This document shows positions 41,459 through 43,359 of a stretch of DNA of 64,000 nt, one piece after another. Position 1 is the first letter of the stretch, and every line of letters begins with the position of its first letter. A program made the translations under genes and the position numbers. The notes under the pieces were generated by a model. That model had not been told where the DNA came from, ran no database searches, and saw nothing but the letters and a program-made list of their open reading frames with translations. Source of the stretch: an uncultured Acidimicrobiales bacterium. Its GTDB lineage: Bacteria > Actinomycetota > Acidimicrobiia > Acidimicrobiales > SHLQ01. The stretch lies in NCBI GenBank assembly GCA_938002955.1, contig CALLAA010000071.1:1-64000 (forward strand), written 5' to 3'.

Positions 41459-42712
41459 ATGGAACTCGACCTGACCGCCCCAGAGATTCGGGTGCTGTGT
41501 TCGCTGATCGAAAAAGAGCGGACAACACCCGACCAGTACCCGTTGAGTACGAATTCGCTGCGCTCGGCGTGTAACCAAAAGACCAGCCGCGAGCCGGTTA
41601 TGGAGTTGAGCGAGCGTGATGTCGACTCTGCGGTTATGGGCTTGCGTGAACGCGGCCTTGCTCGAAGCGTGAAGCCAACGGGGTCTCGGGCGTGGAAACA
41701 TCGCCATGTTACGAACGAGGTGCTCCCGCTCGACGATGCCGAGATTGCGGTGCTTGCGGTGCTTGGTCTGCGTGATGCCCAGACCCCTGGTGAGCTTCGC
41801 CAGCGTTGTGATCGCATGCATCCATTCGACAGTGTCGATGAGGTCGACTCGACGCTGTCTGCGCTGGCCGCTCGCCCCACTCCCCTGGTTCGCAACCTCG
41901 GCAGGGAACCCGGGCAGAGCCAAGATCGGTGGGTGCACTGCTTGGGCGAGGAAGCAGTTCCGGCGTCGCAGAGCCGCCAGCGAGCGCAGGCGGCGACGTT
42001 TCGTGCGCTTCACGAGTCCGGCTTCTTCGCCATGCCAAATCCGTGGGATAGGGGTTCGGCACGCATGATGCAGGAGGCCGGAGCCCTTGCGCTTGCGACG
42101 ACCAGCGCCGGATTCGGTCGCACGATCGGCAAAGACGATCAGCTCGTGACTCGCGATGAACTCGTCGCCCATGTCGCAGACCTGACGGCGTATATCGACG
42201 TTCCGCTCAACGTCGATAGCGAACGGCTCTTTCCAGAGGCACCCGGCGGCATCGCCAGAACCGTCCAACTTCTCGCCGAGGCTGGCGCGGCGGGCGTTTC
42301 TATCGAGGACTACAACCCCAAGACCTCCTCGATCGACCCACTCGGTGCCGCCACCGAGGCCGTCGCGATCGCGGCCGCCGAGTGCGCCCGCCACGACATT
42401 GTCCTGACGGCTCGCACCGAGAACCATCTCTATGGCATCGAGGACCTCGACGACACGATCACCCGACTCAATAGCTTTCGTGATGCCGGTGCGCTGTGTC
42501 TGTATGCACCCGGCCCGAAGAACCTCGGCGACATCGAGCTTCTCGTCAGCGAGGTCGCCGCTCCACTCAACGTTCTCGCGTTCCCGGACGGACCGTCCAA
42601 CAGCGAACTTGCCGCGGCCGGCGTTCGGCGCGCATCGAGTGGATCGATCGTGTTCAACGCTGCAGCAAAAGCAGCGCGCCAGTCGACGATCGACTTTCTC
42701 GCTACTGTCTGA
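41459..42712 (+). CDS. DUF480 (YceH-like winged helix) fused to isocitrate lyase/PEP mutase-family domain
   Basis: N-terminal LTAPEIRVLCSLIEKERTTPDQYPLSTNSLRSACNQKTSREPVMELSERDV...; C-terminal ALHESGFFAMPNPWDRGSARMMQEAGALALATTSAGFG...AGAAGVSIEDYN...ALCLYAPG. One uninterrupted 417-aa frame. Confidence 0.87.
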   Translation: MELDLTAPEIRVLCSLIEKERTTPDQYPLSTNSLRSACNQKTSREPVMELSERDVDSAVMGLRERGLARSVKPTGSRAWKHRHVTNEVLPLDDAEIAVLAVLGLRDAQTPGELRQRCDRMHPFDSVDEVDSTLSALAARPTPLVRNLGREPGQSQDRWVHCLGEEAVPASQSRQRAQAATFRALHESGFFAMPNPWDRGSARMMQEAGALALATTSAGFGRTIGKDDQLVTRDELVAHVADLTAYIDVPLNVDSERLFPEAPGGIARTVQLLAEAGAAGVSIEDYNPKTSSIDPLGAATEAVAIAAAECARHDIVLTARTENHLYGIEDLDDTITRLNSFRDAGALCLYAPGPKNLGDIELLVSEVAAPLNVLAFPDGPSNSELAAAGVRRASSGSIVFNAAAKAARQSTIDFLATV

Positions 42713-42714
42713 AC

Positions 42715-43359
42715 ATGACAACGACCGAACCGGTACATCTCACCGTCTACTCAGACTTTCTTTGACCGTGGTGCTACGTCGCGACCGTGCGTCTCGACAA
42801 GTTGGCCGAGCAGGTCGGCGACCGCATCACAATGGAGTGGAAATCTTTCCTCCTTCGCGTCGAGCCGAAGACCGGTGATCGCGACAAGTTCATCGAGTAC
42901 ACCAAGAGCTGGCTCAATCCTGCTGAACAAGAGCCAGATGCGGCATTCACCGTCTGGGCGAGTGACGAAGGACAACCTCCCTCAAGCGTTCCAGCCCAGG
43001 TCGCGCACAAGGCGGTCCGCGCGTTCGCTCCCGACCGGGCAGACGACTATCACCACCGGCTGCTCACGGCGTACTTCACCGAGAACCGCAACATCGGCGA
43101 TAGCGACGTGCTGCTCGACCTCGCCGAGGACATCGGTATCGACCGAGACGGCCTCGCGACCGTCGCTCGCGAAAACCACGACGCCTTCGCAAAGATGGTG
43201 ATCGATGAGCACAACAGCGCTGTTCAGAGCAACGTCACCGCAGTACCAACGGTTGTGTTTGAACACGCCTTTGCCGTCCCGGGTGCACAACCCGTTGAAA
43301 CGTACGAGCGTCTCATCGAACGTATAGAAGAGAAGAAGGGACCAGCCGGAGAGGCGTGA
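42715..43359 (+). CDS. Predicted selenoprotein: DsbA/FrnE-like thioredoxin-fold oxidoreductase with UPWC active site (in-frame TGA at 42763..42765 read as Sec)
   Basis: ATG 42715 reads MTTTEPVHLTVYSDFL-[TGA]-PWCYVATVRLDKLAEQVGDRITMEWKSFLLRVEP... in one frame. TGA replaces the first Cys of CPWC. The ORF track lists the parts as 42496..42765 and 42787..43359, both in frame 1. Confidence 0.82.
42778..42798 (+). promoter_or_regulatory. Candidate bacterial SECIS hairpin
   Basis: GUCGCGAC - CGUGC - GUCUCGAC: 8-bp stem with one C.U mismatch, 5-nt apical loop with G at position 2 followed by U, apical loop 20 nt after the UGA. Confidence 0.65.

Follow-up and report, generated by a model that had tools for sequence, protein, structure and literature searches.

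The hairpin at positions 42778-42798 (+ strand) of the window, the whole 64,000-nucleotide stretch from an uncultured Acidimicrobiales bacterium analysed here, is with a probability of about 0.96 a bacterial SECIS element (bSECIS), which would be bound by SelB and would direct the insertion of selenocysteine (Sec) into an enzyme of the DsbA/FrnE family. The hairpin is conserved, covaries and is tied to an in-frame UGA, the genome carries a complete set of Sec genes, and the gene is orthologous to Cys-containing DsbA/FrnE proteins.

The gene extends from an ATG at 42715 to a terminal TGA at 43357-43359 (42715-43359, + strand) and encodes a protein of 214 residues when the UGA at 42763-42765 (+), its codon 17, is read as Sec (MTTTEPVHLTVYSDFL-U-PWCYVATVRLDKL...). 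This protein matched PF01323 (DSBA) with an E value of 5.3e-26 (92 bits, cut-off 25.6) and the FrnE structures 5cnw and 5cp1 of the PDB with an E value of 3e-16, the CPWC of FrnE being aligned to UPWC and its first Cys to the UGA. The Streptomyces protein SCO1869 (PDB 3gl5) was also matched. The predicted Sec is therefore the first residue of a UPWC active site, equivalent to CPWC with its first Cys replaced by Sec, as in a UxxC-type selenoprotein of PF01323, and the product is probably a thiol-disulfide oxidoreductase with a redox role. The upstream gene (41459-42712, +) ends 2 nt ahead of the ATG, and in it a DUF480 (YceH-like) domain (PF04337, E=9e-53) is fused in one ORF to a PEP-mutase/methylisocitrate-lyase-like domain (PF13714, E=1e-57).

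Orthologues with the UGA were found in 15 of the 19 genomes of the family, and in a sample of 397 genomes of the order all 60 matches at E<=1e-30 had the in-frame TGA. More were detected in further genomes of the class, as well as one elsewhere in the phylum, whereas a search of plasmids gave distant relatives only, below 60% identity. The position of the UGA was verified in an extracted set of 66 distinct UGA-bearing sequences. One family of the class has both Sec and Cys forms, twice inside a single genus.

These orthologues bear on the reading of the UGA as a true stop, due to a pseudogene, to a sequencing error or to a start at the GTG at 42787 with the hairpin acting on expression. Such a reading would agree with the mechanically called ORF (42787-43359), which begins at that GTG, within the hairpin, but we consider it very improbable. 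The UGA is kept across the 66 distinct sequences, from independent assemblies and with identities down to about 40%, and the residues preceding it are conserved as the first strand of DsbA (S in 65 of 66, D and L in 66 of 66). Moreover, a product starting at 42787 would be devoid of the active site, and a true stop does not predict a hairpin linked to UGA rather than to Cys codons.

The bSECIS hairpin consists of a 5' arm GUCGCGAC (42778-42785, +), an apical loop CGUGC (42786-42790, +) and a 3' arm GUCUCGAC (42791-42798, +), in which eight stem positions include a single C.U mismatch at 42782/42794; the mismatched position is a G.U in 54 of the 66 UGA orthologues. The loop begins 20 nt after the UGA and has G at its second position, followed by U. 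The earlier note had described this hairpin from the letters of the DNA, and its coordinates, arms, loop, mismatch and spacing were reproduced exactly on re-examination. The rules that it gave for such elements also agree with those of a 2026 review, which lists a loop of 3-9 nt, a stem of 4-16 bp, a spacing of 16-37 nt, a G as the first or second loop base, with G or U frequently next to it, and an MFE of -7.5 kcal/mol or lower (PMC13188914). The hairpin lies in the coding region directly 3' of the in-frame UGA, with a 5-nt loop, an 8-position stem, a 20-nt spacing and GU at loop positions 2-3 in 66 of 66 sequences. ViennaRNA predicted exactly the same fold, with energies of -7.0 kcal/mol when the 21 nt were folded alone and of -8.5 kcal/mol in a 36-nt context, borderline with respect to the -7.5 limit, within which 39 of the 66 UGA orthologues fell at 21 nt and 56 of 66 at 36 nt.

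Taken alone, the window hairpin folded better than codon-shuffled versions (z -2.4), but no better than dinucleotide shuffles (z -0.67 at 21 nt and +0.97 at 48 nt), and a scan of the window with Rfam gave no family above the gathering thresholds. Since the lone fold did not exceed dinucleotide shuffles, the window by itself could not decide, and the significance of the hairpin comes from its orthologues.

The result with dinucleotide shuffles, together with the fact that every pair joins coding positions, would be compatible with a hairpin that is only a by-product of codon usage and amino-acid conservation in a gene rich in G+C; the earlier note had cautioned about codon choice. A codon null was used in which the amino acids were fixed and codons were redrawn 300 times from the usage of each orthologous gene itself. 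The 66 UGA sequences formed on average 7.32 of the 8 stem pairs, compared with 5.15 (SD 0.10) in the null, whose highest set mean in the 300 draws was 5.44, never near the observed value. The mean MFE of the 21 nt was -8.25 kcal/mol in the same sequences and -3.79 in the null, so that the orthologous hairpins fold better than their codon-shuffled controls, the comparison that the earlier note had proposed. In an unbiased scan of every helix possible within the first 75 nt, the SECIS-like hairpin ranked first by excess of pairing. Synonymous constraint was likewise limited to the hairpin (codons 42778-42795) and ended at its edges: the four codons that begin at 42778, 42781, 42790 and 42793 had a third-position entropy lowered by 14-20 SD, the two codons of the loop one lowered by about 5 SD, and departures elsewhere were weak, at 4 SD or less.

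The two arms also covaried, as the earlier note had asked of TGA-bearing orthologues, in addition to the stem being conserved. In a covariation count with 54 of the 66 sequences, 91.6% of the cells were paired, a proportion that dropped to 33-44% when the 3' arm was slid by 1-3 columns, and 39 cells with double changes were observed compared to 13.9 after shuffling. Compensatory changes were detected at 42784/42792 (A-U, G-C, U-A) and at 42783/42793 (G-C, C-G). For example, where Val GUN replaces Leu CUN at 42793, GGC takes the place of GGG at 42783. In one orthologue, UCG...CGA gives rise to a U-A at a pair that is A-U or G-C in others. RNAalifold, unaided, found the same stem de novo. Phylogenetically independent sign tests, in which few well-supported branches were available, gave values above 0.05 (p 0.06-0.5 for pair 21/29 and 0.06-0.13 for pair 23/26), with no pairing change in the wrong direction.

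The absence of the hairpin from Cys orthologues with similar amino acids was the other decisive contrast. Five close Cys relatives had 3.80 of 8 pairs, compared with 3.84 in their codon null; three of them are nested in the UGA clade, and two of these three are supported sisters of UGA genes. In these sister pairs, the UGA form folded at -8.3 kcal/mol and the Cys form at -2.2 in one case (L056 vs. L020), and at -7.2 and -4.0, respectively, in the other (L050 vs. L022). Thus, the comparison of TGA and Cys orthologues, also suggested by the earlier note, revealed a degraded stem in the Cys relatives, and selection maintains the hairpin in orthologues with the UGA but not in those with Cys. The codon-null test and this contrast together refute the by-product of codon choice, to which we give practically no weight. 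As the genomes of the three nested Cys forms retain SelA, the change occurred in the gene and not in the Sec system.

The positions of the loop were not equally free to vary. The GU at 42787-42788 was invariant in the 66 UGA orthologues, and the bases on either side of it, 42786 and 42789, showed the highest covariation among all column pairs (MIp 0.81), in the combinations C-G, A-U, G-C, G-U and U-A. These were Watson-Crick pairs in 83% of the cases, compared to 41% expected if both positions were independent and to 31% in control Thr/Ala-Val codon pairs from other parts of the genes. The loop pattern of the FrnE-like group can therefore be written as N-G-U-N'-C, with N and N' covarying across the invariant GU, and 42786/42789 would form a closing pair that frames the GU and leaves C42790 unpaired. 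A GU framed in this way would be similar to the GGUC at the tip of the elements from E. coli and Moorella.

With respect to the host machinery, SelA (387 bits), SelB (279 bits), SelD (263 bits) and tRNA-Sec are all encoded in the same genome, in which one tRNA-Sec scored above the Rfam cut-off (64.5 bits, cut-off 47) and ARAGORN also called a tRNA-SeC with anticodon tca. The SelA and SelB genes adjoin on one contig, where SelD is also located, and SelB carries the winged helix PF09107 (SelB-wing_3); the winged helix of SelB is the part that binds SECIS RNA. The SelD match (G000:C145:20731-21624, -) lies within an open frame that, at 732 aa, exceeds the length of SelD by itself, which suggests a putative SelD fusion. 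Of the genomes tested, 45 of the 48 that have the UGA gene encode SelA, the three others being assemblies of 73-83% completeness. All 3 genomes with the Cys form also encode it, as do 17 of the 29 that lack the gene; in these 17, other selenoproteins presumably sustain the Sec system. In total, SelA was present in 65 of 80 sampled genomes of the order and class, a set picked partly for the UGA gene. That the UGA is instead reassigned to Trp, Cys or Gly, or subject to general readthrough, has nothing specific in its favour and is hardly credible, given that the gene itself and the upstream gene both terminate in TGA, that tRNA-Sec, SelA, SelB and SelD are present, and that the UGA is aligned solely with the catalytic Cys, leaving the dedicated hairpin downstream without explanation.

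In Sec insertion as proposed here, SelB carrying Sec-tRNA-Sec (UCA) would bind the hairpin through its C-terminal winged helix once the ribosome arrives at the UGA (42763). SelB would recognize mainly the GU at the tip of the loop, framed by the covarying 42786/42789 pair, and would deliver Sec in place of termination, giving rise to UPWC as the active site, the selenium counterpart of CPWC.

A covariance model of the hairpin was run on the genome. The model includes the UGA-Pro-Trp-Cys codons, and its first match was the window (63 bits). The second (E 0.0045) was a UGA of a different gene (L105, G000:C145:3-569, -), cut off by the end of the contig; because the model spans those codons, part of this score reflects coding similarity. 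Weaker matches (L106, L107, L108, L110, L111 and L113) were dropped, as none showed a UGA within a reading frame that is plausibly DsbA-like. The product of the second gene (MDIEFWVDPI-U-PWCWVTARWVV..., with a UPWC motif) is a homologue of the Rv2466c-like mycothiol-dependent nitroreductases (PF22234, DsbA family), and most of its nearest homologues in the order have the UGA. The 27 Rv2466c-like UGA sequences extracted were 100% paired in a stem of 7 bp (17-23/29-35, counted from the U), and their 5-nt loop was CGUUG in most and AGGUG in four. Synonymous constraint was again limited to the hairpin, and some overlapping helices showed a slightly higher raw excess of pairing but a far lower occupancy. 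In two Cys homologues of this gene (L130 and L140) the pairs were broken. Judging from these sequences, the Rv2466c-like UGA genes may possibly constitute an undescribed selenoprotein family; a limited literature search found no report combining Rv2466c with selenocysteine. In genome G543, the FrnE-like and Rv2466c-like UGA genes adjoin on the same strand (G543:C1:69355-69978 and 70107-70646, -), which suggests a functional link.

For the window gene, the usual annotation would miss the active site or label the gene as truncated. The set of orthologues also represents a strong natural experiment on bSECIS, with 66 Sec forms and nested Cys forms that keep SelA, and the loop has been resolved to an N-GU-N' tip directly testable for SelB binding. 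On a wider scale, the distribution of these genes suggests that uncultured Acidimicrobiales-type actinobacteria may make wide use of selenium in redox enzymes of the DsbA family; limited literature searches found no report of such wide use, nor any relevant report on selenoproteins in Acidimicrobiia. We see an even chance that the order has a lineage-wide set of Sec DsbA-family proteins, composed of FrnE-like and perhaps undescribed Rv2466c-like members, with the tip of the FrnE-like SECIS being a tight N-(GU)-N' that includes a covarying pair and leaves the 3' C unpaired.

In the SECIS elements of E. coli fdhF and Moorella fdhA, the G-U of the loop is recognized by the winged helix of SelB, and the bases flanking the GU can pair; no equivalent of their bulged U is apparent in the window hairpin. 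With respect to FrnE (5cnw, 5cp1) and Streptomyces SCO1869 (3gl5), the window protein belongs by sequence to the same fold family and has UPWC at the position of their CPWC, but these are Cys proteins, whereas that of the window is shorter and has a predicted Sec. Compared to the bSECIS consensus (PMC13188914, Fig. 2), the hairpin is alike in its 8-bp upper stem, 5-nt loop, loop GU from position 2 and 20-nt spacing, whereas 42786 covaries here with 42789 and not, as in the N1...N2 pattern of the review (PMC13188914), with the last loop base. DsbA-like UxxC selenoproteins have been described in the Sargasso Sea selenoproteome (COG2761; PMC1088965), as "DsbA 1" (PF01323) in GOS (PMC2398784) and as "DsbA-like form 1", with a bSECIS (PMC13188914). 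Compared by description, the window gene shares with these the PF01323/FrnE-like domain, Sec for the first Cys of CxxC and the bSECIS, and differs in that those came from marine metagenomes whereas this one belongs to an orthologous group of Acidimicrobiales. As the FrnE/DsbA UxxC selenoprotein family has been known since 2005, the window gene is counted among a known kind, of which it is a well-supported new example that involves no new mechanism.
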